NCBI RefSeq assembly: GCF_008831285.2
Contig: NC_045148.1
Span: 62,001-126,000, forward strand
Direction of reading: 5' to 3'
DNA: 64,000 nt
DNA from: Nymphaea colorata
Lineage: Eukaryota; Streptophyta; Magnoliopsida; Nymphaeales; Nymphaeaceae
A model generated the notes under the pieces. The model was not told where the DNA came from and made no database searches. It worked only from the letters and a program-made list of their open reading frames with translations. Position 1 is the stretch's first letter, and every line of letters begins with the position of its first letter. The position numbers were made by a program, and so were the translations under genes. Positions 15,379 through 63,562 of the stretch are shown here, one piece after another.

Positions 15379-16142
15379 GTTTAAAGCTTTATCAGCATAT
15401 ATATAGGAAAACAGGGCCACCTAAATATAAAGGCGCCATGGCAGTTATTATGCTACAGGGCATCCTCAAAGACAGAAGGCAAGGAGCCATGAAACTGTGA
15501 GGACTAAAACAAGCAGACGGCGGTAAATGCCCTTCTGCAAAAAGGTCACGCATTGAGCAAATAAAAGGGAAAGTGGAAACAGACAATTCGGTGGGATGTC
15601 TAGCAAAGTTTGACGAGGGAATAAAGGCACAGAATATTTTGAAGAATGGGGCAGAATGCCTTAGTGAGGCCACTGGCCTGTGACTGATGCCAGGGGTTCA
15701 GAGAACAACTCTGCCAACAAAAGCCAAGAGAATGAAAGATCAATCACGATTCATGGTAGTGCAGTAATCATGGAATATCTGATTTTGGATAGTTTTATGT
15801 TGAAAAAGTTGGATGAAGAGTGTCAGATTGCTTCGAAAGTGCTAATAACTGGAAAAATAAGTAGTGGGGAATTAGATGCAAAAGTATTGTTTTGAGGGTG
15901 CATTATAAGCATGACGAACTAGATTCAGATATGTCAATAGTCCGAATTAAGTGATTAAGAATACAAGTTTAAACCTGCTTAGTTGCATTCAATAAAGAAA
16001 TAAGACCTTATTGGAAATCGGATTCAGATATAGTGTAGCTTTGCAGTTGAGTCTTTGTCTAGTCCATTACATGTTAAACTTGTTCTGGTCTGTAACTCAG
16101 TTATCACTGATCTTGGTGTTATCGTTTGAGTCCAACCTCATA

Positions 16143-16147
16143 CATAG
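16143..16147. repeat. Target site duplication (left) of Copia element 1
   Basis: CATAG immediately precedes the left LTR. The identical CATAG follows the right LTR at 21225-21229. Five bases is the usual duplication length for Copia integrases. Confidence 0.85.
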
Positions 16148-16356
16148 TGTTAGAAGTCGAGCATCATGGGAGAATGATGCTAACGTTTACAATGTTAACG
16201 TCTAGGTTGAGAATGGTAACAATGTGATTTCCAATATCAAATGTTTCTATGTATGACATGACATTTCCATGTATGTCAGCCGTGGGTGTCTCATGCCAAC
16301 GGTAAGTTGTGGGTGTCTCATGCCAACGGTCTGCCGTGGGTGTCCAGCTCTTGACA
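16148..16356 (-). repeat. 3' LTR of Copia element 1
   Basis: It runs from TGTTAGAAG to CTTGACA on the plus strand, the same termini (TG...CA) as the 5' LTR apart from one base. At 209 bp it is shorter than the 277-bp partner: it lacks a stretch of about 100 bp corresponding to 20978-21078. It also has one extra copy of a repeat of about 29 bp containing GTGGGTGTCTCATGCCAACG. Confidence 0.9.
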
Positions 16357-16370
16357 CTCCCCCTCAAACT
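16357..16370 (-). other. Polypurine tract of Copia element 1
   Basis: On the minus strand AGTTTGAGGGGGAG ends directly against the TG of the 3' LTR. This is the expected place and composition for the plus-strand DNA primer. The same tract occurs in Copia element 2 at 60145. Confidence 0.85.
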
Positions 16371-19300
16371 GGATAGTAAAGATTTTTAATGCTCAGTTTG
16401 CTTAGAAGATGTTGAAACGCTTCTCGTCTTAGAGCTTTAGTAAATAAATCTGCGAGCTGGTCTTTGCTTCTAAACATAACATGTCCGAATCGTGCCTTGT
16501 AGGAGTTTCTCGCAAACAACATAGCAATCCAGTTCAATATGCTTTGTACGCTCATGAAAGACTGGGTTGGCCGCAATATGTAAGGCTGCTTGATTATCAC
16601 AATAAACTGTCACATGAGAAGTATGAATTACTTGGAAATCGTCCAACAAGTTCTTTAACCAAGTTACTTCACATACGACATTTGCCATTGCCCTGTATTC
16701 AGCTTCTGTAGAAGATCTAGAGACTGTCTGTTGTTTCTTAGTCTTCCATGAAATAGGAACTGAACTGAGGAACACACAGTAGCCAGTGACTGAACGTCGT
16801 GTTTGTTTACATGCCACCCAATTGGAGTCACAAAATGCACTTAGTTGCATGTTGTTGTGTTTCCTCATCATAATCCCTTGGCCTGGATTGAACTTGAGAT
16901 AACAAACGACCCTTAGAGCTGCATGAAGATGAAGGAGACGTGGCTATTGCATGAAGTGGCTTAACATATGGACTGCAAATTGTATGTCGGGCCGTGTAAT
17001 ACTGAGATAAATCAATCTTCCAACTAAACGACGATAATATATATGATTTTTAATGAGCTCTCCTTGATCAACTTTTAATCCATGTTACTGCTCCATTGGA
17101 AATTCCATCGGTTTTGCTCCAAGTAGGCCTACTCCATGTATGATATCCAATGCATATTTTTGTTGCAATAAATAAATACTTTGGTTGGATGGAGCAATTT
17201 CAATCCCCAAAAAATACTTCGGTTTACCTAAGCCTTTCATGGAGAATTTTTGACATAGAAATTGCTTAAAATTTTTAAGGCCATCTTCTTTGTTTCCTGC
17301 AATAAGTAAATCATCAATATATACTAGAACAACAAGGAATATAGTTTTTCTTTTATATGTAAACAAAGAGTGATCGGCTTTTGATTGAGTGAATCCGAAT
17401 TCTTCTAGAGCCATTGATAATTTATGAAACCAATTCCTGGGAGACTGCTTACTTATGTAATTTGAAGACCTGATGCTCCCCCTGTTTAGCATATCCTTGA
17501 GGCACTTCCATATATACTTCTTCGTGTAGGTCGTCATGTAGGAATGCATTGTTGACATCCATATGATACATAATCCAATCCCGGTTAGCAACGATTGCGA
17601 ACAGTGTGCATACCGTTACCATTTTTGCGATTGGGGCAAAGGTCTCATTGAAGTTTAGCCCCTCTTCTTGTGAATAACCCTTGGCAACGAATCTAGCCTT
17701 GTAACGTTCTATGGATCAATCAGACTTGTACTTGATTTTGTATACCCATTTGCATTCGATTGGCTTGATTCATTTTGGTAAAATAGTTATAGTCCATGTT
17801 TTATTATCCTATAAAGCTCGAATTTCAGCATCCATCGCCTCCCGCCATTCTTTGTGTTGGATTGCGTCATAGAAGCTTTCTGGTTCAGGCTTAGACACTA
17901 AGGATGTGAGAAATGTAGTATGTTTAGTAGAAAAATGTTGAAAAGAGGTGTAAGTTGATATAGGATACCTGATACCTTTCTTTTGTCCTGGTGTGTAGAC
18001 ATGATTGGTGTAACAAGGGAACAATAGAAATCTTTCAGCCATGGAACAAATTTTCGGATTCTAGTGGACCTCCTAACTGGCTCAACATTGGTGGTATTTG
18101 ATTCTGGTGGAGCGATTGTATCTCATTTCTTTCGACATCGGTTTTGTCGAAGGGAAGTGTTTTCAACTAAATTTGGTCTACTATCTAGACTATTATTTTG
18201 GTGGTTATCTGGATCTTGTGGATCAGTTTAGTCACTATCCAATGGTGTGTTTCGTAAGTTTGAAAGTTGGTCATACACATCTTCTTCGAAATCACAAGGC
18301 ATAGGGAGGACGACTTCTCTCTCACAATCTTTTGCTTTATGAAAATGGAATATATTATCGTAGAAGACAACATCTCTACTAATAAAAATGTTATGAGATT
18401 CTAAATCATTCTGTTTAGTCACTATCTAATGGTGTGTTCCGTAAGTCTGAAAGTTGGTCATATGCATCTTCTTCGAAATCACAAGGCATAGGGAGGACGA
18501 CTTCTCTCTCACAATCTTTTGTTTTATGAAAAGGGAATATATTCTCGTAGAAGACAACATCTCTACTAATAAAAATTTTATGAGATTCTAAATCATACAC
18601 TTTGTAGGCCTTTTGCCCATTCAGATAACCTATAAAAATACATTTATATGCCATTGACTCAAATTTATCTTTGTTGGAACCTATTTTGGTAGCATAACAT
18701 AGGGAGACAAAAGTACGAAGGTGTTTGGAGGAAGGTTTTCTTTTAAAAAGAATTTCAAAAGGCATTTTTCCATTTGTGTTGGGTGTAGGAATACGATTAA
18801 TTAAGTAGGTTGCAGTCAAGATGCATTCCCCAAAAAACGAAGAGGAAGATTTGATTCAAACTGTAAAGCTCTAGCTACCTCAACTAAGTGCCAGTGTTTA
18901 TGTTCTACAACACCATTTTGTTGTGGTGTTCCCACACAACTATGTTGGTGAATGGTTTCTTGTTGGCATAGAAAATCCTTCATTTCTTTAGAAAAAATTC
19001 AGTTTCGTTATCGGAACGCAAAATTTTTATTTGACAATTAAATTGAGTTTTGATCATAAAAAAGAAATTTTGAACGACATGCAAAGTTTCATATTTGTGT
19101 CTCATAAGAAAAATCCATGTTGCACGAGAGAAATCATCTACAATACTTAAAAAATAATATGCACCGGATAGAGAAGCTTGGGCATACGGCCCCCAAATAT
19201 CACAATGTATTAAATCAAAAGAGTGAGTAGACGAAGTCTCACTTAAATCAAACTTTAAACGAGTCTGTTTAGCACGATGACATGCATCACACAAAAATTG

Positions 19301-20061
19301 GTCATTCAATTCAAGATTCAAATCTAGATAATCATTAACTAATTTTAAACGTGCCAGAGAATGATGTCCTAGCCTTTTGTGCCAAAGCTCGTGGTTGGAA
19401 ATTGCTAAGCAGGGGTTTTGTTCTATTGTGGTCTCTGGCCGAAGCATATACAATCCTCCCCTTACATCACCTCTATCAATCATCGTCTTCAATGCCATGT
19501 CCTGCATAACACAGTAATTAGGAAAAAGCGTGATGGAGCAATTCATGGTTTTAGTTAGCTCACTAACAGATAAGAGATTCACTTTGAATGATGGAATATT
19601 TAACACATTGTTAATATCAAAATTAAGTAGCGACACCTTACCGATATGACAAACAAAAACCACCTTATTATTTGGTAGTGTCACCGGTATATCACATGAT
19701 CTTATGTCTTTGAGAATAGATTGATCAGCACATATGTGCTGACTTGCTCCTGAGTCAATGATCCAAGGAGAGTATTCAAGTTTTGAGGTGATAGCGTTAC
19801 CTGCAAAGTTGACATTCGGTGTTTGATTTTTCACAAGTGATAGCAGTTTGTGATACTCCTCCATCGTAAAAGCTGGGGCTGCCTCTTTAGGATTTTGTCC
19901 ATTGCTATTTGACCCATATATGCTGTCGTTGGATGCCACATGCAGACTTGGTGCAGTTTGATTTGATGTAACATTGGCTGCCACAACATGTTTAAAGTTT
20001 GGATCATAGAATCGATGCCCTGGTGGATATCCGATGTTTTTAAAACATTTTTCTTTGACAT
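16364..20061 (-). pseudogene. Broken Copia pol (protease, integrase, reverse transcriptase, RNase H)
   Basis: Read on the minus strand from high to low coordinates. Aspartic protease with the IDSGASQH motif lies near 19740-19765. The GAG-pre-integrase zinc region (H-x-H, then CDACHRAK) is at 19270-19390. The integrase core has CDIWGPYAQ and RSDNETEF at 19000-19230, and its C-terminal part is at 18415-18819. Reverse transcriptase has the YIDD active site near 17311-17326. RNase H has FCDSNW, STEAEYRA and YCDNQAAL at 16470-16860. The frame is lost repeatedly: a stop after the FFLKK residues at about 18980, a shift near 18830, the out-of-frame duplication at 18226-18599, and stops or shifts between 17591 and 17809 and before 17085. 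The key catalytic motifs are still readable, which suggests moderate age. Confidence 0.93.
18226..18599. repeat. 187-bp tandem duplication inside Copia 1 pol
   Basis: Two direct copies start at 18226 and 18413 (GTTTAGTCACTATC) and stay near-identical over about 187 bp. The duplicated protein segment contains SRDVVFY and CEREVVLPMPCDFEED. Since 187 is not a multiple of three, the duplication throws pol out of frame at the integrase-to-RT transition. Confidence 0.9.
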
Positions 20062-20928
20062 AACCTATGCCACAATAATGACTGCATATAGGTTTAGATT
20101 GCCGACTTCCTTGGCCTTTCTGAAATCTGAAATTGGTAGTGTTGCGGTTGGCAACTTTGTCGTGGTTTGTTTGTGAAACGGCTAATGCAGCAGTCCCTTC
20201 ATTTGTTGTGCTAAAGATCCTAGCTTCCCATTGCTTCTCTTCTTACAAGATTAACGCATAAATTTTCATCACATTTGGCAAAGAGTTTAAGAGAAGCATT
20301 TGCCCTCTAATGGCATTGTAGGAGTCATTTAACCTCATCAAAAATTGAATAATTTTTTCCCTTTGAATCTGGTCTGCATAAACTCTCAGTGCCCCACACG
20401 AGCATTCAGGGAGAGGGGAATATGAACCCAATTCATCCCACAAAGCCTTCATTTTTGTGAAATAAGAAGTCACCGACATAGTCTCTTGCTGTAAATGAGA
20501 GATTGAACTTTGGACTTGATATATCCTAGTGGCAAGACTGTGGGTAAACCTTTCTTTTAGATCTTGCCACACCTCTCTCGCTGTGGTAGCATAAATAATG
20601 CTATTTGCAATATTTTTGCTAATGGAATTAAAAATCTATGATAACACAAGATGGTTACATTGAACCCAATGAAGATACAGTGGGTTTGTTTTCACAGGTT
20701 CCGTAATTGAACCATTAATGAAACCAGTCTTGTTTTTTGCTGAAATAGCCATAGACATGGCCCTACTCCATGTACCATAGTTGTCCTCATTGAGAGGTTG
20801 CGCACCAGCATATTTCCAGGGTTATCTGAATGGTGAATGTAAAAAGGATTAGACATCACCTGGTATGGATCTGAACCGACAGAGTCGCCATGAAGTACAT
20901 CGATCATTTTTGCTCCTTGGATGTTCAT
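20062..20928 (-). pseudogene. Broken Copia gag of element 1
   Basis: The start methionine at 20926-20928 follows the primer site by a few bases. The N-terminal part carries NPFYIHHSDNPGNMLV, a motif typical of this Copia gag family, and then the frame shifts near 20800. The core resumes at 20243-20572 (WQDLKERF, QETMSVTSYF, LNDSYNAIRGQ). A zinc knuckle at about 20050-20090 is degenerate: cysteine spacing is changed and the histidine position reads tyrosine. No single frame spans the gene. Confidence 0.85.
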
Positions 20929-20936
20929 GCTTCAAT

Positions 20937-20947
20937 GCTTGATACCA
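20937..20947 (-). other. Primer-binding site of Copia element 1
   Basis: TGGTATCAAGC on the minus strand starts immediately after the 5' LTR end. The first eight bases match the standard primer site complementary to initiator methionine tRNA (TGGTATCAGAGC); the rest has drifted. Confidence 0.8.
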
Positions 20948-21224
20948 TGTTAGAAGTCGAGCATCATGGGAGAATGAGAATAGCGGTAGAAAGAAACGTT
21001 GAATTGCTGTATTTTTTTGAATTACTTACAAAAGAGTGTATAACGGAATATATACAATAGATTCTCAACTTGGCTAATGTTAACGTTTACAATTTTAACT
21101 TCTAGGTTGAGAATGGTAACAATGTGATTTCCAATATCAAATGTTTCTATGTATGAGATTTCCATGTATGTCAGCCGTGGGTGTCTCATGCCAACGGTCT
21201 GCCGTGGGTGTCCAGTTCTCGACA
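20948..21224 (-). repeat. 5' LTR of Copia element 1
   Basis: A 277-bp LTR with TG...CA ends, reading TGTCGAGAACTGG inward on the minus strand and ending CTTCTAACA against the primer site. It contains a TATA-like stretch (GAATATATAC on the plus strand near 21048) that is missing from the 3' LTR. CATAG follows at 21225-21229. Confidence 0.9.
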
Positions 21225-21505
21225 CATAGAGTTTTCGATATGATTTCTATCTATCAGATCAATTGCTTTTAACTAATCGTGTTTGATGCATTATAAGCTT
21301 CAAAACTCGATTACCAGATTGATCTTAAGAAATTATGTTCCAAAAGAATGATGAACTCAACTTTTAACACATGAAATGATAAAAAACTTCTTAGTTTGGG
21401 GGGAAATTGTCAGTTAACTAAAAATGAAGGTGTTAATTGCTACCATCATCATTCTTTTTGGTATAATGGAGGCTTATGATAGAACAGCAGAAATGATATG
21501 ATTTA

Positions 21506-21808
21506 CGGAGCATTTTGAATGACACCTTTATCTAGCCCAGTTTTGTGAAAGGTTTGTTTTAGGAAAACCAATTTTTTTAAATTTGGTTTGATTGTTTGGA
21601 CGTCACATCCAAAACCTGTTTTTTTTTTATGAATGATATTTGGTATCAAACTTTTCACTTCCTTTTACAAAACCTGTCTTTGCTAAAACTGAGTTTTCCT
21701 CAAATCTAATTATGATGGCATCCAAATAATCTAAAAACGTTGATTTGAAGTCAAAAAATAACGTTTTGCCTACAAAACGAGGATTTGAGGTGTCATCCAA
21801 ATGCTCCC
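21506..21808. mobile_element. Tourist-like MITE with TTA target duplication
   Basis: A 303-bp element. The left terminus CGGAGCATTTTGAATGACAC and the reverse complement of the right terminus GGGAGCATTTGGATGACACC form inverted repeats. TTA flanks it on both sides (21503-21505 and 21809-21811). In duplication copy B the same spot reads GAGTTAAGGGCG with a single TTA and no insert, which is a natural empty site. A TTA duplication and non-coding content point to the PIF/Harbinger (Tourist) class. A relative lies at 9365-9652. Confidence 0.85.
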
Positions 21809-21811
21809 TTA

Positions 21812-23639
21812 TAAGGTCTAAAGGGACAAGGGACTCGTGCATCTGCGTTGAAAAGAAAGGAAAAAGATAAAACTACTAGAGGACAAGAGAGGCGATGAAG
21901 GTTTGGCATGTCCCTGCCCTCCTCTAACATCCACACAGTTCCTTGATGAATTAGTTCGATCGCTCAGAATATGTAGACACATAATTACTTGCATGCATGT
22001 ACAAAATATACATATGGATGCACGAGTTCATAGGCGTGTACACGCATGTAGAGATTGTCAACATATCATATTTGATTTACTATATCTTATTTATCGGATG
22101 TTCATATGTTTGGATTTGAAAATGAATGACGAGAAGTCTAAAGCATATCTGAATCAGTTCTTAAATTATAATTCCAATCCGATTTGAGTCTGACTTTTAG
22201 ATTGACATGTGTATCTAAATTTGACTTTTTATTAACCCATGCATTATGATACATTAAGAATCAACTTTCCAAATGTTGGATGTTAACTTTTTTCATATGT
22301 GCCTTATTGAAGTAATTATCTGCCTCTGCCTCGGAATGCAAAATGGTTGCAAAAGCGATAACAAGAAGCGACATGCATAGAGCATGAGTGAGGAATGACC
22401 ATACAAGACTCATTTGTATGTCATTAGAGTACTCACCATACCAAAAAGGTCAGGACTCATTATGGAAAAGTCAAGAAAGTGAGTCTAAAAAATTGCTAGG
22501 ATGCAAAGAGAGGTGATTATGTAACACTACATTATGAAAAAAATAAAATGAAAATGAAATTGGTACTAGTGGAATAAATAAACATATAACGGGTGACCAG
22601 TGAAAAGCAAGATAAGTATGTATCGTAAATGGATATCAAATGCATGGTTATATGAATTTTCTCATCAAGTAAAATAGGTTTCCTACAAATGAAAAATTTA
22701 TCCAGTTATTAATTCGATTTTCGTAGATATTATTCTTCTAGTAACATAAGTTTGCTTAGATTCTAATACAACCTTCGACCCCAAGGACAGGGGTAAGAAG
22801 AGAGGCGCTTTGGCTTCTTCAAGGGATTTCCATGTGCAATTTATTTTACTCTTGTCGCAGACATTTACAACGTATTAACTAATTTTATTTCCTCTCTCTC
22901 TAACTCCAAGAAACCTAACATAATTGATTGGCCTGATGTGCCCTATAACATATCACTCAACCACTTATCTTCGTGCATAAAAAAAAGAAAAAAAGAAAAA
23001 AACAAGACAGCTAATAGTTGTAAACATGTTAGGTGATAAAATATGAAAATGGCAAGCATTAAATTAAAAAAAAAGGAATAAAAGTACATTGTTCTTGGGT
23101 TGGTTCTAGTTTCGTGCGTAGGTTGGGCTAGTTAAAAAAAAAGAGAGATGTTTCTTATTATTGGAAGAGATATAATAAAATAATATTTGTCAATATGAAA
23201 AAGGACGTCCGATCTGGTTTGGATCCGTTGGTTGGACTGCCGTCCCCGAGACAATGGTTAGGTTGGTTCAGGTCACGTCACTGTTGAGGACTGAATCATT
23301 GCGGTGGCAGAATCGTGCAAGGCCCCGGCTCGACGGCCCAGACTGTCAGCCCAGCCCACCCTGAGAGGCGAACCGGGCCGGTGGGTTCACATCCCCACGC
23401 ACTCACCCACCGTGATCAAGATCTCGTGCACAACAATCATCGCCTGCCTCAAGTTTTCGAGTTCTGACCTCCCCACTGGCTCTCCATCTTCTATTACGTG
23501 CACTTAAGAACAACTTGTGGTTGGTTTCTCGAGGCCCTGTGTTTCTGATGTCCTCCTGCGTCATTGGTGCGTCGAAGTTACTTTGTGGCAGCATTGCCTT
23601 GATGAGATGAGATCAGAAAGATCTGGATCCAGATTCATG
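21812..23639. other. Copy A intergenic DNA upstream of the trihelix pseudogene
   Basis: The start (21812-21920) matches copy B at 28270-28380, including TGCGTTGAAAAGAAAGG. After that the two copies diverge until a pyrimidine-rich stretch near 22885 that resembles copy B at 30860. The segment 23280-23500 is GC-rich without a recognisable product. No gene seen. Confidence 0.5.
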
Positions 23640-24330
23640 AATTCTAGAGGTCTAGACCCAGTTAGGAAGATCCTGCTGCTCCGTCAGGACGCAGGCTCCC
23701 GGTGGATGAAGGTGCAGAGTCCGTTCAGGCTGCCGGGTTTCATCCTTGGCGGTCTATTCGCAAGGCTGCGCCACCCCGGCATGATGGTGGCGGTGGCTAA
23801 ACTACGGTGCGGATTGTACTAAATGGAAAAGGTTTTTCTCCGGCAACTCTATTCCCCCCACCCCTGCCACCGTCACTGCTAATTCTGCAAATGGCTGCAG
23901 GTATCTTCTTTTGAGTAGTCACACAGCAATGGAAACAACAACAATTGTGATGGCGCGACAATGGTGGTAAAAACATGAAGGGATTTATCGGTATCGTCTT
24001 CGCCAAATGAGAAGATGGAAGAGAGTGGAAGAGGAGGGGATGGAGAAAGCAGCAAATGGCCGAGGCATGGAACTCTCACGCTTCTGGAGCTAAGGGCAAA
24101 AGGAAGCCACTCAAACGGGTGCACTGTGGGAGGAGCTATCCAGCTGAACAAGTTCTCGCTTCTTCTTCCTCATGGCTAACAAAAGAATTCTTGTATTTTC
24201 TTTCTTCCTTAATTTGTTGTTGTTGAAACAACATGTGGTGCCAATAATGTTCGAAAATTGCATGTATGGGTACATATGATTTGTAGTTCGGGTGATAAAA
24301 GATTAACGAAGGAAACGAATTGTGAGAAAA
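23640..24330 (+). pseudogene. Trihelix gene pseudogene: exon 1 remnant in copy A
   Basis: This stretch aligns with exon 1 and the start of the intron of the intact trihelix gene (32693-33480). Shared blocks include GCAGAGTCCGTTCA, CACCCCGGCATGATGGTG, ATGGCCGAGGCATG and the LTLLELR codons of the first trihelix helix. It is dead: a stop follows CGLY near 23820, several indels shift the frame, part of the helix-1/2 coding is deleted near 24100, and the splice donor reads CAGCTGAAC where the intact gene has CAGGTGAAC. Exon 2, which carries most of the first DNA-binding domain and all of the second, is absent from copy A. Confidence 0.88.
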
Positions 24331-27260
24331 ACTATTTTCGTTATTTGATATTAGATTATACTTTTTACATTGTTTTTCTCTCAATTATTGATCTCAACCA
24401 CTAATCTGAAAATGAACAAGACACCGTCAAACATGTAAGTGTCTACCATATATATGTATATATATATATATATGTAAAATACCGTGAAAATTGTAGCTTG
24501 AGGGTTGATTTTGCAACTGATCATGGCCTTGTGTATGGACCAAGTTACTGTTTGCCTGTCATGTGCACTTCCTTTTTTGTTGTTTTTAACATATACCAGT
24601 ACTTTCTGATGCTAGCTAGCTACATGTTAAGGATTCATCTTGGCGTTTCTCGTTTGTGTACTCCTTTCAGTGAGATTTGTTTCTGCTACCAGGCGTCTGT
24701 AATGGTGGTAGCAGATACCGTATAAAAAAATGAGTTTGCACGTCCACATGGAACGTCGGAGGTGATGGATTCCTTGGAAAACTTTGATCATACCTCCCAA
24801 GCTAATCAAACAACTAATTGAGAAACCACCAGCGGTCAGGCTGTCAAACTGGGCAACTGGAAATCCAGCAGACTATGAGAAATAGAAACTGTATCTGGAA
24901 TCCCACAAGCATTCGGACCGAAGAGAGACTAAGTGACGTCGAGACACTTTTAATTGTGATTTTAAAAGGTTACAACAAGCTTCTGCTACAAGTAAATTGG
25001 AGCTCAAATGTTTTGAAGATTGTTTAGTTTGAAATTGCCAAACCATATCAACGATTCCTACACTGGAAATTGGGTGGTGTTTGATGTGGTCAGAATTGTA
25101 GAATTCTAAAATTATAATTCATGAAATGAAAACTGTGTTACCAAACAAAGAATTTTGATTATGAAACTATAAACTCAATCTTTATCAGAATTTGGAATTG
25201 TGATTTCACCCTAGGAGGTGGAATTGGATATTTCGGGCGCCTGTCCACAGTCCATGGCGCGATCTCCAAAGCCAGGAGCACGGACGTAAGACTTATCATG
25301 GCAAGTCTGTGTCTGGGATCCTTTGGTCGGTGGAGGATTTAAGATTCCTTCGCTCCAGTACTGAAAATTGGATCTGTCATCCACATCTAATCTTGAATAG
25401 CGTGTTCAAGGACTTTTGTTAAAGATATACGTGCTTCTCTCCAGTCTAACAACAGGTAGATCACTAATCGACCTAAAAATTAATTTTGGAACTGGTTGCA
25501 CAAATCATTAGTCACCATAGATTTCAAATATTTTCCTTCCACGTACAATTTTGGACATTCCACTGTAGGCATACCGCTGAATTTATGCATCTTACTGTTT
25601 TTCTGATCTCTGATGCATCGCTTCAGGCTGAACATTGAGAATATGTGTTATATTCTGCTCAGGTATGCAGACTATATGTATATAATATATGCACATCTAT
25701 GACGTTGTGGATAGAACTAATAGTGTGATCAACTTTCAAGAATTGTTTGCGATTCATGTTCCAATGCTTCCAATTTTGAAACAATTCATTTGTTTTGCAA
25801 GTGAACCAACGGAAGCTTACCTCGGTATACAAGTATGCAGAACATTAAACTACTAAGTAATGTCCTTCAGCCCAAATCTCTCATCGTTATTAGGAGAGTA
25901 GCTCCAACAGGAATTGAACAAGAGACATGGTCAATACGCGCTTTCTGCGCCGGACCCTTTTTTATGTGTGTGAGAGAGCAGAGAATTAGAGAAAATAAAA
26001 ATAATAGAGAAGTTGGCATTGAAGAAAGTGATAATTTAGTATGAGAAAATTACAATTGTTATGAATGAAAGCACTTCATGTCTCATGTCTGACACGAGCC
26101 CTACTTTTAAAGCCGATCGACTTAAGTTCGATCAATTAGTCTATGATCTGGCCTTTATATGCAATTGAATTGAATTTTTATCAGAAGCTGGTCCCAGACT
26201 CTTGCACATTTGGATATAAAGCTGCACACTGAACCTGAATCAGATCCAGATTCATTAACAAATTTGACTAGACCGATTCCGAAACTCGAGCCAAATCCAA
26301 TTCACTCACACCCCTACCCTACGTGGTTAGAAAGTTTTGTGCTAATTGGCAAGAAATTTCTGCGTCAATACAATCTCTTGCCGCTGTTTGGGGCACTTTA
26401 ATTGCCTTTATACAAAGCAATAGTGACCTTTATATTAATAAAGACAACAAATTAAGAGATAAGGGAACAAAGCAGATAAGCACGACCGCTTTCTCACTCT
26501 AGATCTCTACAAACTTTTAAGGAAATTAATGCCGTATTCATAGTGTGGGTTCCATCCTCTACATCCACCGAAACCCAATCCTCCAATAAAAGCACTATTT
26601 TGCTTGTCAGCCTTCTTCTCACTCCCCTTGAAATATATGCCTTCGAAGAAATATATCTACTTGCACTAGTGTTGCTGCCTAATATGCTTTATTTTTTCCC
26701 CTTTTTCCCCCTAACAAAACAAAGTGAAAAGTCGAGAAACTAAGAATGATTATATTAAGGTTTTATGTTGCTTCTAGTGCAGATGTAAAAGAAGCTAATA
26801 AAGTCTTCAGTTAAGTTGAAAAAGATGCTGATTACATCAAATGAATCTTGATGACAATAATGTTATATCTATCGCACATATATGCTTTTAACCATATATG
26901 CTTTCAACCAGCTACTAACTGGAGCTTAACTACCATGCTTAATTAGCATGTACAACTCATGCTCATTTATAATTTCTCAGGTCTAACCGTTGGCACGAAC
27001 TCAATTCATTTATAAATGAGTCTCGTTCTTATGAATCCTTACTGCTTCGACATCGGTAATTGATGTGTTGCATTGACTTAAATTAGATATCTCCTACACT
27101 TCTAATAATGTAAATGATTCAGATTCATTATCTTTGTACATAAAAACACATACATAGACAAATTTTATATACAACCAAAGAAACTATAATCTTTAAACTA
27201 GCTACATCCTAATAACGCAGGTTTCACTCATAAGCTTGCTTGTGCTTGTATGTCTTGATG
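24331..27260. other. Copy A region matching DNA downstream of the intact trihelix gene
   Basis: After the truncated intron there is a TA-rich tract (24450-24476). The sequence then joins DNA homologous to 36455 and beyond, so the equivalent of about 33480-36370 is missing. Later homologous blocks are 24735-25030 with 36665-36900, 25250-25430 with 37810-37970, and 26190-27170 with parts of 39680-41610. A stretch at 25075-25215 lacks a counterpart in B. No gene recognised. Confidence 0.6.
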
Positions 27261-32692: not shown

Positions 32693-34763
32693 ATGGACAT
32701 GGGAGGGCAGTACGCCAGGACCGAGTTGGAGGCCCTGTTGAAGAGCCACCACCACCACTTCCTCCCTCCTCTACCGCTGCCGTCTGTTCCGTCGGCCAGC
32801 GGGCTCTCGGTGACGGAGATGATGGCGCAGAGTCCGTTCAAGCTGCCAGGGTTCTTCCATGGCAGTCTGTTTGGAAGGCCGCACCACCCGGGCATGATGG
32901 TGACGGCGGAGGATGAGGCGGCGGCTCAGTTGGGGTGCAGTATGGACTACGGGGCGGAAAGATTAGATTTTTGCTCCGGCAGCTCTATTCCCACTACCGC
33001 CACCAATCTCATTGCTAATGTTGCAAATGGCGCTGGAGATCTTCTTTTCAGTAGTCACAGCAATGAGAACAACAACAATTGTGATGGCGGTCGTAGCGGT
33101 GAGAACATGATGAGATTTATGGGTACGTCGTCTTCACCAAGCGAGAAGATGGAAGACAGAGAAGGAGGAGGGGATGGAGGAAGCAGCAGATGGCCGAGGC
33201 ATGAAACTCTTACGCTTCTGGAGCTAAGGGCACAAATGGATTCCAAGTTTCGCGAAGCCACTCAAAAGGGTCCTCTATGGGAGGAGTTATCCAGGTGAAC
33301 AAATCTCACTTTCTCCTTTTACCTCGCTAATAAAAAATTTCTTGTACTTTTTTTTCCCCTTCCTCTCTATCTTGCTGTTTCTAGAGCAACAATGTTGGCA
33401 AAATTGCATGTGTAGGTAACTGCATGCTGCACATGTGATTTGTAGTTTAAGTGATAAAATTAGTAAAGAGAACAAAATTGGTCAGCAAATATACAAATAA
33501 TTAACTCTGAAGTATTTCTTATTTTTGAGAGAGAGAGAGAGAGAGAGAAATGAATGCTTGTTGGTGCTGTTTGTTTGCAGGGAAATGGCAGAAGGATATG
33601 GTTACCACAGGAGCGGAAAGAAATGTAGGGAGAAATTCGAGAATCTGTACAAGTACTATAAGAAGACTAAGTTAGGTAGAATGGGGAGGCAAGATGGGAA
33701 ACACTATAGGTTCTATGCTCAACTTGAGGCCCTTTGTGGTGGAGGAGAAGGAAGGACGACTAACAACAGCAGCAGCATCACTCCTAATGTAAATTCGAGT
33801 ACCAACAGCCAGTTTGATCACGAGCTCCACAATGGTAGGGGAGGAAAGAAGGCTTTGGAGGAAAAGACAAAAGTGGACTCACCAAGCATTTCGGAGTCCG
33901 ACATGGCGATGGGAAGCTCAGACTCGTCAGAAGAGGACTTGGGTATTGAAAAAGGGAAGAAGAAGAAGAAGCAGAAGACGGCAGAGGGGAAGAGCTGGAG
34001 GAAGAAGATGAAGGTCTATATAGAAAAGCAGATGAAGGTGTTCATCGACAGGCAAGAGGAGTGGTTCGAGAGGATAGTGAAGACTTTAGAGCGCAGGGAA
34101 GAGGAGAGGCTCGCCACAGAGGAGGCATGGAGAAAGCAAGAGAATGAACGCTTGCAAGTGGAGCACCAATTTTGGGCCAAGGAGAGGGCATGGATGCAAG
34201 CTCGTGATTCCACATTCATCGAGGCACTGCGCAAAGTAATGGGACAGGAATGCACTAGGGCCTCTTCCTCTCCTCCCTCTCCTCCCCTGAGCTTTGACCT
34301 GAAGGAGATGCAGGAGTTGGAGACGAACAAAGAGGACCAAGCATTATACAACACTAGCAACAACAACAACGAGAGCACCAGCAGCAGTAGCAGCAGCAGG
34401 AGGTGGCCCAAACATGAGATCTTGAGCCTTATAAGATTGAGGACGGCCATGGACGGAAGGTTCCAGGAAGGGGTCTCTAAGGGCAGCCTCTGGGAAGAGA
34501 TCTCCTTGAAGATGACACAATTGGGGTACGAGAAGAGTGGGAAGAGGTGCAAGGAGAAATGGGAAAACATCAACAAATACTTCAGGAAAGCAAAGGAATG
34601 TAACAGGAAGAGGAGGGAGAACTCCAAAACCTGCCCTTATTTTCAATACCTAGAAGAGCTATATGACAGTGGGGACATAAGGGTCATTCATGAAGGTTTT
34701 GACAATGATTACTGCGAGCAGGAGCAAAAGGATGCAGAAGCATCGGCAGAGGGATTATATTGA
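32693..34763 (+). CDS. GT-2-type trihelix transcription factor, PETAL LOSS-like
   Basis: Nuclear DNA-binding factor of the GT-2 group, which binds GT-rich light- and development-related promoter elements. Two exons, 32693-33294 and 33581-34763, with GT-AG ends joining inside an arginine codon, give 1785 nt and 594 residues. The first trihelix domain spans about residues 166-253 (RWPRHETLTLLELR, then SGKKCREKFENLYKYYKKTK and GRQDGKHYRF) and is split by the intron. A lysine run KGKKKKKQK near residue 327 is a likely nuclear signal. A long charged helix at about 338-422 (RQEEWFERIVKTLERREEER) is the central coiled-coil domain. The second trihelix is at about 474-563 (RRWPKHEILSLIRLR, SGKRCKEKWENINKYF). 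Domain layout, the first-domain sequence and length resemble Arabidopsis PETAL LOSS, which acts in flower development, but orthology is not proven. The frame is intact; copy A holds its dead sister. Confidence 0.95.
33527..33548. repeat. (GA)n microsatellite next to the trihelix intron acceptor
   Basis: A pure GA run lies about 30 bases upstream of the TTTGCAG acceptor at 33574-33580. Length change here could alter spacing to the branch site. Copy A lacks this part. Confidence 0.9.
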
Positions 34764-36369
34764 GAGCAGCGAGGCAATAATGAGAAGAAGCTACTGTGAT
34801 AGACGAAGGCTTGAGGTAGGCTTTGCTCTTCTTCTTGTGATCTTCCTCTCGCCTCTCTCTCTCCGCCACTGTAATGCAGCTAGGTTTCTCGCCTTCGGCA
34901 CATGTTGAGAGGGGTCCAGATATACTGTCGCCTGTGATTTCTTCTTTTCTGTTTTCCTTCTTCTTTCTTTTTTTTTTTTTCCTTTTTTCTTTGTCATGCT
35001 AGGACAAGCTTTTCTACCAATAGTATATATGTTGGACGCAAGGAAAAATTTACCACGTTCTGACGTTCATCTAAGAGGAACAAATGTCAAGGCCATGTTT
35101 CACATTTTCTTATTACTAGTTCATGTATGAAGTCGTTGTGTATATATAATTTTTCTGACATTGAAATCTTGATTTTATTCGACATATTACATGTAATGTA
35201 CCATCCTGTGATTTCGTATGATTAGGTAACTCTTGAGGCATTTTTGTGGATAGTTATAATAATTGCTTGCTGAGAGTTGTAGAACAAGAGTACGGTGCCA
35301 TTATTGACGACCAGTTCCGCTTTTTTATATATAATATGTATATAAAAAAAAGTTCAGGCGTGCCTCGATTTCTTCGCCCTATCATTTTCTAAACCATCTG
35401 AACATTGTCGTAACTGTGTCATGGACACATTGTAAATCCGAAATGCATCAGCGGTAGAATAGCAGTCTGAGTTTTCCCTGCTGACACTTCGACTTTGATT
35501 TCTCCAAATGACTGGCAAAAGTTTTTCGATGTTCGAATACTTTTAAATTTCAACAGGATTCAAATGCGCAAACGGCTGTTCTGGACGCAATTATCACCCT
35601 CGCAAGTTAGCGAAGAAAAAGCCAAAAATCTACGTGCCTGAGAGAGTACAGTTTTAACGTTTTCTCATATGGTGCGCAGAATAAGAAGCCCAAGTCTTTT
35701 CACCATTTTCTTCCTCCGTCTTTTCTTCTGTATAGTATCTGTTGTCACACCACGGAATGCAAATGCTCTCTCTTAGGTAGATATCGTAACTAATTGTTCC
35801 TCCTGACCATCCGAATAAGATTGTAGTTGATTCAACTGCGGTCCTATTCGCATATAGCTTGTTACTACAATGTTGCGTTATAGGTACGCAGGGGGATGAG
35901 TTTTTATACTCTTTCAGAAGTAATTGCATGTGACATTGCACCAAATTTAAGAAATTGAGGTTTCCTTCTTCAAATGAATTTTCTGTGTATTTGAATTCTT
36001 ACATGCAAAAAAAATTAAGTAACAAAAACAATATAGAAGAATTGAATTTAACTGGCTACCAATAGATATTTTCTTTTCAATTTTGTGCTGTTAAAAACTG
36101 CATTGACAACCGCTAGTTCCTTGGCCATGGTTCTTTTGGTATTGTCCAATCAAAGTTGCCTGATAAAATATAAGACATAATTTTTCAATTTGAGTCATAT
36201 ATATATATATATATCTATCTGCCTAGGCGATGAATTGACATAATAACTCGGATCCTAGTCAAGGTGGTCACATGACGGCATTCTCAGGACCCACAGCTAC
36301 TGACCGTGGGTCCCACTCTTAATGCTGCCATGTGATTGATCGTGACCGCATAGCTAATGAAATAAGTGT

Positions 36370-36419
<50 letters not shown>

Positions 36420-38210
36420 AACGGCAGAATAGCGTATGGTTTGAGCGCTGCTATATGCAGACTGATCATGGCCTTGTGTTCGGACCAAGTTACGGATATT
36501 GCTCTCTCAGTGCCTGTGGGTCTGAAAGTTGTATGATTTTTTCACATACACTAGTACATGTTAAGGGTGATCATGGTGGTTCTCTGTTGTGTATTCTTTC
36601 AGTGAGATTTGTTTCTGCAACCATGCGTTTGTAATGGTGATACCAGAAACTGTATAACTAAATGACTTGGCACGTCGGCATGGAATCTCCAAGGTGCTGG
36701 ATTCCATGGATAATTTTTTTAAAACCTCCGTAGCTAATTGATTAAGCAGTTAGCCGTGGAACTGTCTCTGGAAACCACTGGCAGTCAGACCGCAGAGAAA
36801 CCAAGCGACGTAGAAGACACTTTGATAATCCATCTTAATAACTTGACACAACAAGCATCTGCAGTTCGTAAATGGGAGCTCAATTTATTCGAAGATTGTT
36901 TAACTCGTGGTTACCAAACCGTATGATTAATATACTGGGATCCCAAATACTTAGTCAGGATGAAAAATCAGCTGCAACCGCTCTTTTTCAGAAGGGTTTT
37001 GTGCATCCCTTGATCCAACGCCGAATGTGGGTGTCCTCCTTGATGGCTCGACAGGCTTCAAGTGTCCTTCTACGTGTTTGAGATCAACCAATTTCTGACC
37101 GGAGATTGCCCGGAGCTTTGCCAAAAGAAGAAAGCACGACCATTCTTTCTGTTTCTCTCAGCTGCCTTCCTTCGTCTTTTTAACTTTTCTGAACTAACTT
37201 ATGCTTCATGCCTTTGTTTTTGTCGATCCCCGACTTCCCGCTTCCTACACTGGAATTACTAAATGATCTTAATGTGCAAAGTATATGATGAAGAAAAGAA
37301 AGCAGACTCTTGTTACTAAGACGCTGGCCCACTTTCCCGAAGGAAAAAAGAAAGGCAGGGATATATCTCCAAGTCTAATCTTACTATTCAAGTATAGACT
37401 ACAAAGGCATATGGCATTCATTGCATTGAGAATCTTTTGGGTCCTTTTTGAAGCATGAAGTAACTGTGTAGGGTTACATCACACATGTGCTGCTGTCTGT
37501 TGTCCTACCCCTTTTGCACCTAATCTCTGGTTGACATTAGGGCAGGGTTGGGTACAACGGCATCAAGTACACTCACATGGGGTTGATATTAACGCCCATC
37601 ATCCACAGCTAAGTTTCAAGGCTCTGCTATCAGCTTCAGTGGAAGCCTGTTCGTTTCTGCATCTAACTAGTTCATACTGTCTAAGAGCATGGCCCTACTG
37701 GCCAAACTGATCTTTTGAGAGGTTACATCTTTGGGAGTCTACAGACAAGGTTTCATGCTTAGAATTATAATCGTGGTTTGAAATTTTAAACGAGTCGGTT
37801 GTCTCGACCCCGACAGATCTGCGGCTCCATCTCCAAAGCCAGTAGCACGGTTATCGTGAGACTTACCATAGCAAGTCTGCGTTTCAGATCCTTTGATTGA
37901 GGATTTAAGATTCCTTGCTCGAGTACTGAGCATTGGATCTGGCAACAAGATCTTGAACAGCGTGTTCAAGGAATTTAATCAGTTCTCTCCAGTCGGCAGC
38001 AAGGTGGAAGCAAAAGGCTGGTGATAGGTCGCTTGTTCACTCTGGGTAATAGAGGTAGAAATTTTGGGGCCGGGTAAAACTGTTTCATGCCATCGAATTC
38101 AGAAGATTGACTTCTCACCTTGGAATGCATCTTGCTTTGTTTAGTCTTGAACGTAGTGTAGCTGGTTGGATTAGATTTATTGGTTGAGACTCCCATCAGT
38201 TTGTTTTTAT
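34764..38210. other. Downstream of the trihelix gene, no gene recognised
   Basis: It begins with the trihelix 3' UTR, with T-rich runs near 34960-34990. A (TA)n run lies at 36374-36414. From 36455 the sequence again matches copy A. Plus-strand frames at 36738-36926 and 36872-37081 are short and are not conserved as open frames in copy A, which argues against coding. Confidence 0.55.
36374..36414. repeat. (TA)n microsatellite at a duplication breakpoint
   Basis: About 20 TA units. Copy A has a shorter TA tract at 24450-24476 at the matching place, exactly where its deletion of trihelix exon 2 ends. Confidence 0.9.
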
Positions 38211-38928
38211 AGATTCTAAGTACCTAGGCTAATGAGATAAACTGGGACATCAAGTTAACAATACACTGTCTCTATTTCTTATAGATTCTAAGCACCTAGG
38301 CTAATGAGATAAACTGGGACATCAAGTTAACAATACACTGTCTCTATTTCTTATAGATTCTAAGCACCTAGGCTAATGAGATAAACTGGGACATCAAGTT
38401 AACAATACACTGTCTCTATTTCTTATAGATTCTAAGCACCTAGGCTAATGAGATAAACTGGGACATCAAGTTAACAATACACTGCCTCTATTTCTTATAG
38501 ATTCTAAGCACCTAGGCTAATGAGATAAACTGGGACATCAAGTTAACAATACACTGTCTCTATTTCTTATAGATTCTAAGCACCTAGGCTAATGAGATAA
38601 ACTGGGACATCAAGTTAACAATACACTGTCTCTATTTCTTATAGATTCTAAGCACCTAGGCTAATGAGATAAACTGGGACATCAAGTTAACAATACACTG
38701 TCTCTATTTCTTATAGATTCTAAGCACCTAGGCTAATGAGATAAACTGGGACATCAAGTTAACAATACACTGTCTCTATTTCTTATAGATTCTAAGCACC
38801 TAGGCTAATGAGATAAACTGGGACATCAAGTTAACAATACACTGTCTCTATTTCTTATAGATTCTAAGCACCTAGGCTAATGAGATAAACTGGGACATCA
38901 AGTTAACAATACAATGTCTCTATTTCAA
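38211..38928. repeat. 72-bp minisatellite, ten copies
   Basis: Units start at 38211, 38283, 38355, 38427, 38499, 38571, 38643, 38715, 38787 and 38859 with AGATTCTAAGCACCTAGG. Copies are identical or differ by single bases: the first has TACC for CACC, the fourth has CTGCCTC, and the last has ACAATGTC and ends a few bases short. Stops occur in the frames checked, so it is not a coding repeat. It is absent from the corresponding part of copy A. Confidence 0.97.
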
Positions 38929-40362
38929 ACCGCAAAAGCACGAGAGTTTGTCTCAGCTTCCAGGCAGTGGGGTTACCTCCTGCTCACCCAAAAGTTTGTA
39001 TCTACAAGTCTAAGAGAGGTTGGGATGGTGAAGCATTGCATTGGTAGTTCTAAAGTTGTAGGTTTGAGCTCTATACTGAACCAGCTTTCTCCACAAGCCA
39101 AAACATGAAAAGGTTCTAAGCAACCACGCATACAGTTCCATGAAATTCATTGATTTATATGTTAGATAGCCTCAACTATTTGCTTATTTATATTTGGTTG
39201 CATCTGACGGCCATGGCCCCTCTTCAGACTTTTAAAAAAATAAAAAATTTACATGTAAATTTTAAAAAATTTAGTAAATTATGTCTCGATCGCTGCAATG
39301 AAATGTTTCTTGCTCTACCTCCTGAGCTCACAAATATTTACTTATTTATATATAGTATCCCTCAATGATTTTGCCATGCATTTGAAAGGTTTAAGATTTT
39401 CTGAGTCAGCGCCCCTCACCAGAAAAGATTTTAAGAAGTTCATATACATCTTCTTCAAGTGCTTTTGGATGCAAGAAAAATGGCCGGAACTTTGATTTGG
39501 ATGCAAGAAAAATGGCCGGAACTTTGATTGATGTAAGCAGTTCAGATTCATGTCCAAAAACTCTTAAACAAATTCGAGTACATCAGTTTCTTTATCATTT
39601 TGGTTCCAACTTGTATATGGCCATATTTTACCGACAACGTCTGGCATGTATATGAAATTGAGTGGGACTTTTAACAGAAGTGGGTCTCAGACCCCAATTG
39701 GAACATCAAGCTGTACACTGAATCTGAATCAGATCGATAATCAGATCCGGATTCTTTACCAGATTTGACTGGACGGATTCCCAAATTGGTGACATCATAT
39801 ATGATGCGAGTGATCAATATTGCAGATAAGCACGAGGAATTTCTCGGTCTAGATCTCTACAAACTTAGGGAACGGCGAGATTCATAGTGTGGGTTCCATC
39901 CCGTACGTACATCCACCGAACCCATTCTCCAATAAACAGACTGCTTTGCCTGTCAGCCTTTTTCTCATTTTCCATTTAAATATATGCCATCAAGATATGT
40001 TTCGATATATGTACCAAGCAGCTTTCACTTTACTGTCTAATGTGCTATATAACTTTTTTTCTTTTCTCTTTCCGCTAATGATAGGGAGTGAAAATGGAGA
40101 AAATAAGAGTGTTTATATTAAGGATGCTTCTAGTGCACTTTTGCCATTGTATGCATGGTCAGATAGATGGGTTGGGTTTTTAAAAACTTCAAGTTGAAAG
40201 AGAAGCTAAATAAAGCAGTAGCAACCCATACTATTAGAACGAGCGGATTTGCCTCTAAAGTCATATGTTGAGCGAGTGACAAATTCTTTCACCTTGAATG
40301 CGGTTGATTTCGAGAAGGAAAAACAAAGAAAGAAAGCCAAGCTAATCTATTGCATGCATCAT
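38929..40362. other. Copy B intergenic DNA
   Basis: No gene recognised. A tRNA-like box (GTAGGTTTGAGCTC near 39056) hints at a decayed SINE, but no A box at the right distance is convincing. The stretch 39680-40140 aligns with 26190-26790 of copy A. Confidence 0.4.
39465..39528. repeat. Two-copy 32-bp tandem duplication
   Basis: The unit TTGGATGCAAGAAAAATGGC... occurs at 39465 and 39497 without visible mismatch over most of its length. Confidence 0.9.
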
Positions 40363-40665
40363 ATAACAACTCGACCCACTCCCGGGCTGGGGCTCCTGGT
40401 TCGACGGATCCCAACTCGCTCCCTAGCAGTTTCGGTTTCAATCCTAAAAGAACCAGGACAATCATCTCATTAATAGCTTCCCATTATAAGCCCTTGAAGA
40501 TTCCTCACAATCTTCGATTCAGGACTAAACTTCTGGGGTGTTACAATCCACCCCCCTTAAGGCACACCCGTCCGCGCGTGTGGGACCCCAGGTCCGAGTG
40601 TTAAACCGGCTCTGATACCATTATAACAACCCGACCCACTCCCGGACTCAGGCCAAAATTGGGAT
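40363..40665 (-). mobile_element. TRIM-like LTR element fragment
   Basis: Read on the minus strand. A primer site TGGTATCAGAGCCGG (40606-40620) is a good match to the initiator-methionine tRNA site. After about 45 bases comes a polypurine stretch TTAAGGGGGGTGGAT (40546-40560), then an LTR starting TGTAACACCCC (40545 downward to about 40363). The inner edges of both LTRs share ATAACAAC-CGACCCACTCCCGG (40363 and 40623). Only about 75 bp separates the LTRs, typical of terminal-repeat retrotransposons in miniature. The upstream LTR appears truncated, and no target duplication was found. It has no counterpart in copy A. A full-size element reduced by deletion is the alternative. Confidence 0.55.
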
Positions 40666-40957
40666 TCAAGAGAACTAGAAGTTGACAAAACCAGGTTTTG
40701 TAAGGAGTGAAATAACCCCACCCTTCAAAGTTGCCTATAAAAACTGGGATATGAGTTTCGTCGGAACAAAGAGACCATATTTTCAAAATCTCATTCAAAA
40801 CTTGATTTTCATTAACTAAATTTTCATAATTAGGCTGAATAAGGATGTTCCATGAATCTTTTTCAATTTTTGGGGGTGGATTCGAAAATAAGTCTGTAAG
40901 TTTATTATGACTTTTTTCCCATAACAAAGAAACCATTTCTATAAGATGGGACTGCAA
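40601..40957 (-). other. Unidentified 118-codon open frame next to the TRIM-like fragment
   Basis: An uninterrupted minus-strand frame running into the LTR-like sequence. It contains KIEKDSWNILIQPNYENL and DETHIPVFIGNFEGW. I recognise no family. It may be part of the element's LTR or of captured host sequence. Its end overlaps the primer site, so a free-standing gene is unlikely. Confidence 0.2.
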
Positions 40958-43900
40958 AGGAGCAGAGTTTGAGATTTTGCCTTCTTTCTATCGTGACTCG
41001 CTCGAGTCTATGACTTGGCTTGGTCTAACCTAATAAATCTCAAATTCTGGTCGCTAAGCTCAAGCCGAGTTGCGTAGGAGCTGTGATAGGGGTGGAGCCA
41101 GACATTTTTCATGAGGGGCTCAAATTAAAGTTTCTAAATTTTGACCTGCGCCAAAATATCATTTTTTGAAATTTTTATGTAAGATAAATAATTTTTTTAA
41201 AATTTATATGTAAAATTATTTTTTTTTGTGGTGGGGTCAGGGCCCTTGCGTCATCCCAAAAAGATGCTCATGATATATTAAATACATTTAATGACAATAG
41301 TATTGCATCTACAACACCAACACATATGCGCTTAATCAGCTGGGTCAAGCTTAATGGTCACCATGCTGAATGTATACAACTCTTTCTTTAAAAAAATTCA
41401 ATAATTTCTTTACTCTAACCACTGGCACGAACTCAATCCATATTAACATATGAGTCTCTTCCTTGTAGATCCTTTCTTGCAGCTTGGAGGTCCACGGTAA
41501 GTGGTGCACAGAATTGGCTCAAATTATATATTTCTTCCACTTACAATATTTAAAATGAACGATTTAGATTCAGATTTAAAAGTATAGACATAAGACGAAT
41601 TTTATATACCATAGGTGTTGATCTATTAGGATTTGAATTTAGATTCAAATGAGAAGGAGAAAAGCATGTTCATTTTTCTCACTCTTAAATTTCAAATCTG
41701 AAGATCTTCTCAATCCGACTTTTTTAAAATTCCACAATCTATATGAATACGACTTTTAAATTCACAACCGAAATCGGATTTTATCTGACCTCTCTGATTT
41801 TCATTATCTGATCAGATAATTGAATTAAAACTAAATCCCAAAAATCCGGATTGAATAAGATTGCATAATTTGATGTCAAGTTTTCCGCCATAGCCGACTT
41901 TTTTGAAGCTGTTCCGTCAACTAATCCCTCCTACTGACATCGCTAAAGGGCTTGCATTCAAACAAGGGTAGGTGAGAAGGTTGTTTCAAACGAATGATGC
42001 CCGAAATGGGCCTGTACAAGATAATGTGTTTCAGACTAGATTTTCCCTTTCAGGCAAAGACGATCCTTTCCATATGAAAGCAGCTGAAACAAAAGCAGCT
42101 AAATGAAGCAAAATATATATATATATATTTTTGACAAAACCCTCAAATTTGATGGTGGGGAATCAGTTTGCAATACCAAATTCTTGATCTGAAGGAGAAG
42201 TTGGTAGGAACAGAGCCGATCAGTTGTACATTAATTTCATGTTTTTTAAATAAGAATTAAGTGTATATAGGATGTAATCCTGATGTCTAAAAGTATAGAA
42301 AAGAACATAAAGATCATGCTTTCAAATCCATAAGATATGTTAAGAAGCTGAATCGAAGTTGAAAGCAGATTACATATTGTAGTTACAAGTTGAATTACAT
42401 TCATCTGAGCGATATGTAGTTGTAAATACCTTCGCGTAGCAGTAAATTGGTTCTTTATATTTCTCCAGAACGTTCTCAAAATGATTCGATTAACTCTATT
42501 TTCTCAGTTTCACCCTTGCCTGTGGATATATGTATACAAATTCTTTATCCATCAGTGAGATCATTGCGAAGAAATTTCTCCATTCTCCATTCGTTTGATT
42601 CCTCTGTGGGTGTTTTGTTCTCAAGGTATGTTTTGTAAATAAAAGCAGTCCATGCCAGGCAGTATGTTGAGTCTTTCAATTTGTATTTTCATAATGGTAG
42701 TTGCAACATTGCAAAGATCAGGATCGAGTTCTTCTTTCTATTTACAAGAAGGAAAGAAGAACTGAAAAGTTAAGACTTCCGACACATTAATGTTCATTTA
42801 GTCAATGAAAAATTGATGCCTTGAGCAGGAAAAAAGTAAAAAGACTGATTCCTTGAGCAGGAAAAAAGTAAAGCAACAACCAAAAACAATTGTACGCAAA
42901 ATATCTTAACGTGTAATTAGTGAACAAGGCTTGCATATGAAAAAAAATGTTGGTGATCACTTTGCAAATACTTTATATATATATATGATCATAAGAAAAA
43001 TGAAAAAAATGTTAAAGAGAGAGAGAGAGAGAGGGGTAATCAAGGTGGCTCATACTTGAGAACATTTCATGAGAGAAAAATGGGGTGACTTCTTCAACGT
43101 GGGGATGGCTTCTTCTGTGTTTGAAATTAAGGAAGAAACAGTTCGCTCGTACTTTTTACCAGAAGTGAAGAATGTGGCGCTTAAGAGATAAATGGCTGTA
43201 CTGGTTAGAACTACCGGACTTGTCTGCATACCTGAAACTAGAAGATTCTTTTGAGGGTGTTTATGGGGCCGATTGGCAATTGAGACAATTTATTACTATT
43301 CTATAAATCTACCTCAGAAAATAGAGGCAAGATTTATGGAACGCTAAATATGATACTATTCTCTGAATTTGTCCTTGTTCCTCAATGATTAGATTTATGG
43401 AATAGTAACTAAATAGCTACTGTGTATCCAGATAGCCTTTTTTCCTGTTACTAGCATTTGTTTTTTGTTTTGTTTTGTTTTTTGTTTTTTGAAACAGGAA
43501 GACATTTTACTGGAGAAAGGATATCCTGCTCTTCTCCCCGAGTTTTGCAATCGCATCGTTGAATTTCGCATCATCCTGTAAGAGCTTGGAGAGTTAAACG
43601 CGACCTTCCGGCCACGGCAATTTTTGTCAGTACTGGCTCTTGTCAGCTTTGCACTGTTGGCTTCTACTCCCTCTACCGTCGAGTCATGGCTGCTCTGCTT
43701 TCTGTAGTCTGGCCCACATTTTTGGAATAATTTTGTAGGTCTTTAGGCGGACGCCCTGTCCTCCGGCCGGCTTCACTTAATTCTCCTGGTCTCTTAATTA
43801 GATCTCATCTGCATTCAAGTGCCACCGGCTGTCTATACACCACAGGGTCTCTCCATATGATCACGTTATATTGTAGTCTTGCGTACGTTGAACACATGTT

Positions 43901-49733: not shown

Positions 49734-49836
<103 letters not shown>

Positions 49837-60144: not shown

Positions 60145-60162
60145 CTCCCCCTCAAACTGAGG
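60145..60162 (-). other. Polypurine tract of Copia element 2
   Basis: CTCAGTTTGAGGGGGAG on the minus strand abuts the LTR start at 60144, the expected position for second-strand priming. Confidence 0.85.
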
Positions 60163-63532: not shown

Positions 63533-63562
63533 GGTAAAAGAAGGAACAAGTTCTTTGCTAGT

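Follow-up and report, generated by a model that had tools for sequence, protein, structure and literature searches.

A direct tandem duplication in Nymphaea colorata that pairs an intact trihelix gene with a decayed copy

A 64,000-nucleotide stretch of the Nymphaea colorata genome (contig NC_045148.1, positions 62,001 to 126,000; here called the window) almost certainly carries an old direct tandem duplication in which one copy of a trihelix transcription factor gene has stayed intact while the other has decayed in a neutral fashion. We refer to the upstream copy of the duplicated unit, which holds the dead gene, as A and to the downstream copy, which holds the intact gene, as B. All positions are those of the window, and the features are collected in Table 1. 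Leaving aside one preserved noncoding segment, a duplication with one dead trihelix copy is ordinary gene birth and death.

The initial annotation had linked the two adjacent segments by at least nine collinear homologous blocks in the same order and orientation. Comparing the window with itself, we found ten significant blocks between A and B, all of them collinear and on the same strand, and the coordinates originally assigned to the pair were right. The block ends were drawn from two BLAST scorings, with E values of 5.0e-5 to 3.3e-87 in the first and 4.6e-6 to 5.7e-111 in the second. Ungapped identity over all ten blocks was 81.9% (3287 columns); the identities of 65-79% given by BLAST count gaps. 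If order and orientation were random, the chance of ten blocks this orderly would be about 5e-10, a figure that ignores the A-B matches outside the series, namely one inverted match (21522-21714/40848-40654; E 8.9e-5 and 0.002 in the two scorings) and some short AT-rich ones (about 24.44-24.52 kb against 36.4 and 42.1 kb). The self-comparison thus returned ordered, significant blocks, not scattered short matches, as expected of the direct tandem duplication that had been proposed. When A and B were aligned over their full lengths in one piece at low gap cost, chance matches were chained through unrelated stretches, and we used the significant local blocks instead.

Nine of the ten block pairs matched only themselves and their partners anywhere in the window (E≤1e-3) and are therefore not repeats dispersed through it. 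The exception, block 6 (24385-25068/36333-36940), had further matches to the (AT)n run at about 49.8 kb, to AT-rich parts of itself, and to two short pieces of sequence, 36160-36218 and 42114-42173. Positions 49755-49832 form a perfect (TA)39 run. Homology starts and ends at boundaries common to both copies, no block extends beyond the unit, and the flanks are without any longer match. The blocks cover 53% of A (with the Copia element described below excluded) and 25% of B. At present A is 11.8 kb long and B is 14.4 kb long; both have gained or lost sequence since the duplication, and from these two lengths we would guess at an original unit of perhaps 10 kb.

Table 1. Positions of the duplicated unit, its blocks, genes, insertions, and neighbors in the window
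Feature	Position	Strand	Remarks
Copy A (upstream, dead gene)	15376-27174	+	Ten collinear blocks with copy B
Copy B (downstream, intact gene)	27257-41611	+	Ten collinear blocks with copy A
Block 1	A 15376-16089 / B 27257-27939	same	Self-comparison
Block 2	A 21226-21508 / B 27972-28267	same	Self-comparison
Block 3	A 21812-21924 / B 28263-28381	same	Self-comparison
Block 4	A 22829-22912 / B 30813-30900	same	Self-comparison
Block 5	A 23672-24334 / B 32780-33493	same	Self-comparison
Block 6	A 24385-25068 / B 36333-36940	same	Self-comparison
Block 7	A 25245-25416 / B 37811-37976	same	Self-comparison
Block 8	A 26147-26293 / B 39640-39794	same	Self-comparison
Block 9	A 26443-26781 / B 39791-40137	same	Self-comparison
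Block 10	A 26819-27174 / B 41258-41611	same	Self-comparison
Junction filler	27175-27256		82 bp; does not align with the ends of A or B
Intact trihelix gene, exon 1	32693-33294	+	Start codon to GT donor
Intact trihelix gene, exon 2	33581-34763	+	After CAG acceptor, to stop
Dead copy, exon 1 remnant	about 23672-24143	+	5' end absent, frameshifts, stops, donor lost
Residue of exon 2 region in A	24335-24384		50 bp where B has 2839 bp (33494-36332)
Best-preserved segment, A	15528-15669		130/142 identical to B, no indels, noncoding
Best-preserved segment, B	27423-27564		130/142 identical to A, no indels, noncoding
Copia LTR retrotransposon, A only	16178-21224 (ends by eye)	pol on -	Empty site in B at about 27940-27971
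MITE-like insert, A only	21507-21808 (ends by eye)		About 300 bp; imperfect terminal inverted repeats of about 20 bp
72-bp minisatellite, B only	38207-38926		10 copies, 99% matches
Isocitrate dehydrogenase gene	2.8-8.6 kb	-	Neighbor of the duplication
B_lectin/PAN gene	51.2-54.8 kb	+	Neighbor of the duplication
PPR sequence	58.5-58.9 kb		Neighbor of the duplication

The gene in copy B appears to be live in the sense that its predicted reading frame is intact: two exons separated by a canonical GT-AG intron encode a product of 594 amino acids. The spliced protein contains two Myb_DNA-bind_4 stretches (Pfam PF13837, E=1.1e-41, 141.5 bits against a cutoff of 27). The second trihelix domain matches the GT-1 structures 2ebi and 2jmw in the PDB, and the first, N-terminal one is interrupted by the intron. 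Judged by this predicted protein, the B gene is a trihelix transcription factor of the two-domain type, and we tentatively take it to be PETAL LOSS-like by its resemblance to the Arabidopsis sequence. Its neighbors offer a lead only, in that Arabidopsis, too, has an isocitrate dehydrogenase gene and a lectin gene of this kind in the neighborhood of PETAL LOSS or EDA31. The isocitrate dehydrogenase region itself contains two adjoining direct copies of about 335 bp (3565-4233) that are 92% alike. The trihelix family is plant specific and, together with the Copia elements and the neighboring genes, marks the stretch as plant DNA. As expected for a plant gene, a search for relatives in bacterial and archaeal genome contigs gave 37 pattern matches, none of which was confirmed. 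Besides the intact gene and the Copia element, we scanned 24 ORFs of the unit against Pfam (out of 144 ORFs of at least 60 amino acids in 15000-42000) and found no match; two of the 24 are frames of the exon 1 remnant. Rfam likewise gave no RNA family in the whole window at gathering scores.

The gene in copy A, by its disabling lesions and its intact partner, is best described as a duplicated pseudogene. All that is left of it is a part of exon 1 and a part of the intron (23672-24334). The alignment of the two first exons begins 87 bases into the B coding sequence, leaving the start codon and 29 codons without a counterpart in A. The exon remnant has 12 indels, 10 of them of a length that is not divisible by three and so shifts the frame; stops are present in each of the three frames, and the GT of the splice donor has become CT. 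The 2839 bp found only in B comprise the end of the intron, exon 2, and the 3' flank, and a search of A for exon 2 gave no match at E<0.2, the best (E 0.22) lying within the exon 1 remnant. The reading of the pair as one live and one dead transcription factor copy is thereby borne out. The further suggestion that the locus shows how a gene copy was lost holds for the lesions, which are visible, but not for their order, which is not.

Mismatches in exon 1 numbered 26/157, 25/154, and 30/156 at codon positions 1, 2, and 3, with no clear third-position excess over these 467 sites of a single alignment; the intron had 42/178. Since the three codon positions are nearly even, there is little sign of long protein constraint on copy A, in a sample that is small and from an N-terminal part that may be loosely constrained in B. 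Directly upstream of the two gene copies, 30901-32779 and 22913-23671 showed no homology at E≤0.01, and the proximal promoter region may have been replaced or lost in at least one of them.

The annotation had also described divergence of the copies by transposon insertion, deletion, and minisatellite growth, and we could find an instance of each: the Copia and MITE-like insertions are confined to A, 50 bp in A stand against 2839 bp in B, and the minisatellite is confined to B. In B nothing corresponding to the Copia element lies between the counterparts of its two flanking blocks, and the sequence is contiguous at the site of the MITE-like insert. The reading frame of the Copia element is split over several ORFs, and a search by eye revealed no perfect target-site duplication. 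Between the two LTRs of the element, 5 of 142 aligned sites differ (K2P 0.036 without indels; 90.8% identity in BLAST, with gaps counted). Against a K2P of 0.214 for the duplication, this places the Copia element much later, if rates were alike, and we infer from the LTR divergence that it inserted after the duplication. Inside the element, 18223-18596 is a 187-bp tandem duplication with 95% identity. A second Copia element lies at 60150-63560 on the minus strand, with integrase and RVT_2 matches, and is 62-64% like the first at the DNA level over two stretches. The weak inverted similarity (about 60%) noted above joins the MITE-like insert to a B-specific stretch (40654-40848), and the two possibly belong to one element family. 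A comparison of two copies polarizes little of this change, and some of the sequence that looks deleted from A may instead have been inserted into B, except where the gene shows the direction.

The duplication is old. Pooled noncoding divergence between A and B was 0.214 (K2P, 2824 columns), which corresponds to about 7, 16, or 41 million years at 1.5e-8, 6.5e-9, or 2.6e-9 substitutions per site per year; these rates are assumed, and we choose no single date among the three. Identities did not differ significantly between blocks (chi-square 15.2, df 9, P 0.087) and so fit one rate, as neutral decay predicts.

One segment of 142 bp decayed more slowly than the rest of the unit, with moderate significance. 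It lies in the first block, near the 5' extreme of each copy and far upstream of the dead gene as well as of the intact one, and is 91.5% identical without a single indel, whereas the blocks as a whole have about 1 indel per 18 columns (196 in 3483). It was the top-scoring of all segments, and its score was reached in 0 of 1000 permutations. At a fixed width of 142 columns, the three alignment settings that we used gave P values of 0.0015, 0.0005, and 0.0005; at 100 columns they gave 0.0065, 0.007, and 0.004; and at 60 columns, 0.08, 0.07, and 0.05. We picked both the width of 142 bp and the scoring of the scan post hoc, and columns are treated as independent in the permutations. With 200 columns, the highest-scoring window fell in exon 1 instead (P 0.09, 0.04, and 0.04), and for the longest indel-free run P was 0.005, 0.072, and 0.006.

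The segment may be a retained regulatory element, a lead with weak to moderate support that two sequences cannot prove. We would put even odds on gene conversion between the copies, or a low local mutation rate, having preserved it in place of selection. Two sequences cannot separate these three causes, and the P values of the scan, in part post hoc, are moderate. Recent conversion should have left a nearly identical tract, against the 91.5% seen here; a conversion of older date, or a locally low rate of mutation, is at least as likely as a control element. The stronger proposal, that the A segment was kept by selection after its gene had died and, with its twin in B, now serves the surviving gene as a duplicated (shadow) enhancer some 17 kb 5' of that gene's start codon, is a speculation that we think unlikely.

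How the unit was duplicated can be judged from its boundaries. Of the filler between the copies, 13 bp recur in direct orientation at 27379-27391 (P about 0.003, the lowest value that 300 shuffles can give), and 12 bp recur inverted at 27265-27276 (P 0.01, weak taken alone); these were the 2 of 12 comparisons with P of 0.01 or less. Filler built on local templates is typically left by error-prone end joining. Between the left flank (13876-15375) and the right flank (41612-43111) we found nothing longer than 28 bp (best E 0.007), and between the left flank and the junction there was no match at E≤1. With no repeats at the boundaries, end joining is a likelier route than unequal crossing-over between flanking repeats. 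Unequal crossing-over is a common route to tandem duplications, and repeats that once mediated it could have decayed; however, sequence of the same age within the unit aligns readily, whereas the left flank, junction, and right flank have nothing in common beyond those 28 bp at most, and the filler with its local-template matches is of the end-joining type. We therefore regard crossing-over as improbable. Both filler matches are exact to B at places where A and B differ. The filler may for this reason postdate the duplication, and it would then mark a later repair of the junction.

Two further readings fare worse still. It seems very improbable that the 142-bp segment is exonic coding sequence or yields a structured RNA: on the minus strand one frame runs open through both copies, but in it 10 of the 12 changes fall in codons whose amino acid is altered, stops interrupt every one of the other five frames in one copy or both, ORFs over the segment had no Pfam match and the two in copy A no PDB match, RNA folding z-scores of 0.15 to 1.13 (four strands) made it no more stable than shuffled sequences, and the window had no Rfam match at gathering scores. 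Also very improbable is an assembly artifact, in which two haplotypes or homeologous segments were misjoined end to end, for although this would give the same order of left flank, A, B, and right flank, a noncoding divergence of 0.214 with kilobase indels is far too great for the haplotypes of one plant (old homeologs could differ as much), the window is free of N and hence of any scaffold gap bridged with N, and the junction is 82 bp of ordinary-looking DNA.

Under the tandem duplication that we favor, a segment with one trihelix gene and its flanking DNA would have been copied head to tail once in an ancestor, probably when a break was repaired by error-prone end joining, as the absence of boundary repeats suggests. 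The downstream copy would have been kept intact, and the upstream copy, being redundant, would have been left to decay like neutral sequence, taking on the frameshifts and losing the start region, the splice donor, and the stretch with exon 2, lesions that can be seen directly. The Copia and MITE-like elements, observed only in A, and the growth of the minisatellite, observed only in B, would have come later. The slower decay of the 142-bp segment might, speculatively, reflect a lasting cis-regulatory role. Were that true of an element that outlived its gene, the fate of an enhancer would be separable from the fate of the coding sequence after duplication. The duplication itself is a clear and well-bounded case in which the tandem copy of a developmental regulator dies while its surroundings stay readable, and the locus carries its own internal clocks in the LTR pair and the pooled divergence.

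Judged by title and the opening of the abstract, none of the papers listed on PETAL LOSS and trihelix duplication, plant tandem pseudogenes, and conserved noncoding sequence concerns tandem PETAL LOSS genes of which one is dead. Compared with other tandem duplicates that have one pseudogenized member, the locus has the same features, with adjacent direct copies, an intact partner, frameshifts, a lost splice site, and a lost exon; nothing essential differs, and the flanking blocks here can still be aligned in both copies. With the two-domain trihelix proteins PETAL LOSS and EDA31 of Arabidopsis, the B gene shares two Myb_DNA-bind_4 stretches, the second matching GT-1 structures, and an N-terminal domain split by an intron; its identity as PETAL LOSS itself is tentative, suggested by sequence resemblance and by the neighboring genes. 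PETAL LOSS is described as having a role in Arabidopsis perianth development (PMC7125107; PMC4195496), and one of these accounts describes EDA31 as its close member (PMC4195496). The same account suggests that the rice genes Os03g18330 and Os03g18340 arose by tandem duplication within the trihelix family, as we propose for Nymphaea; the rice pair differs in consisting of two separately numbered genes, and the passage on it mentions no dead copy (PMC4195496).
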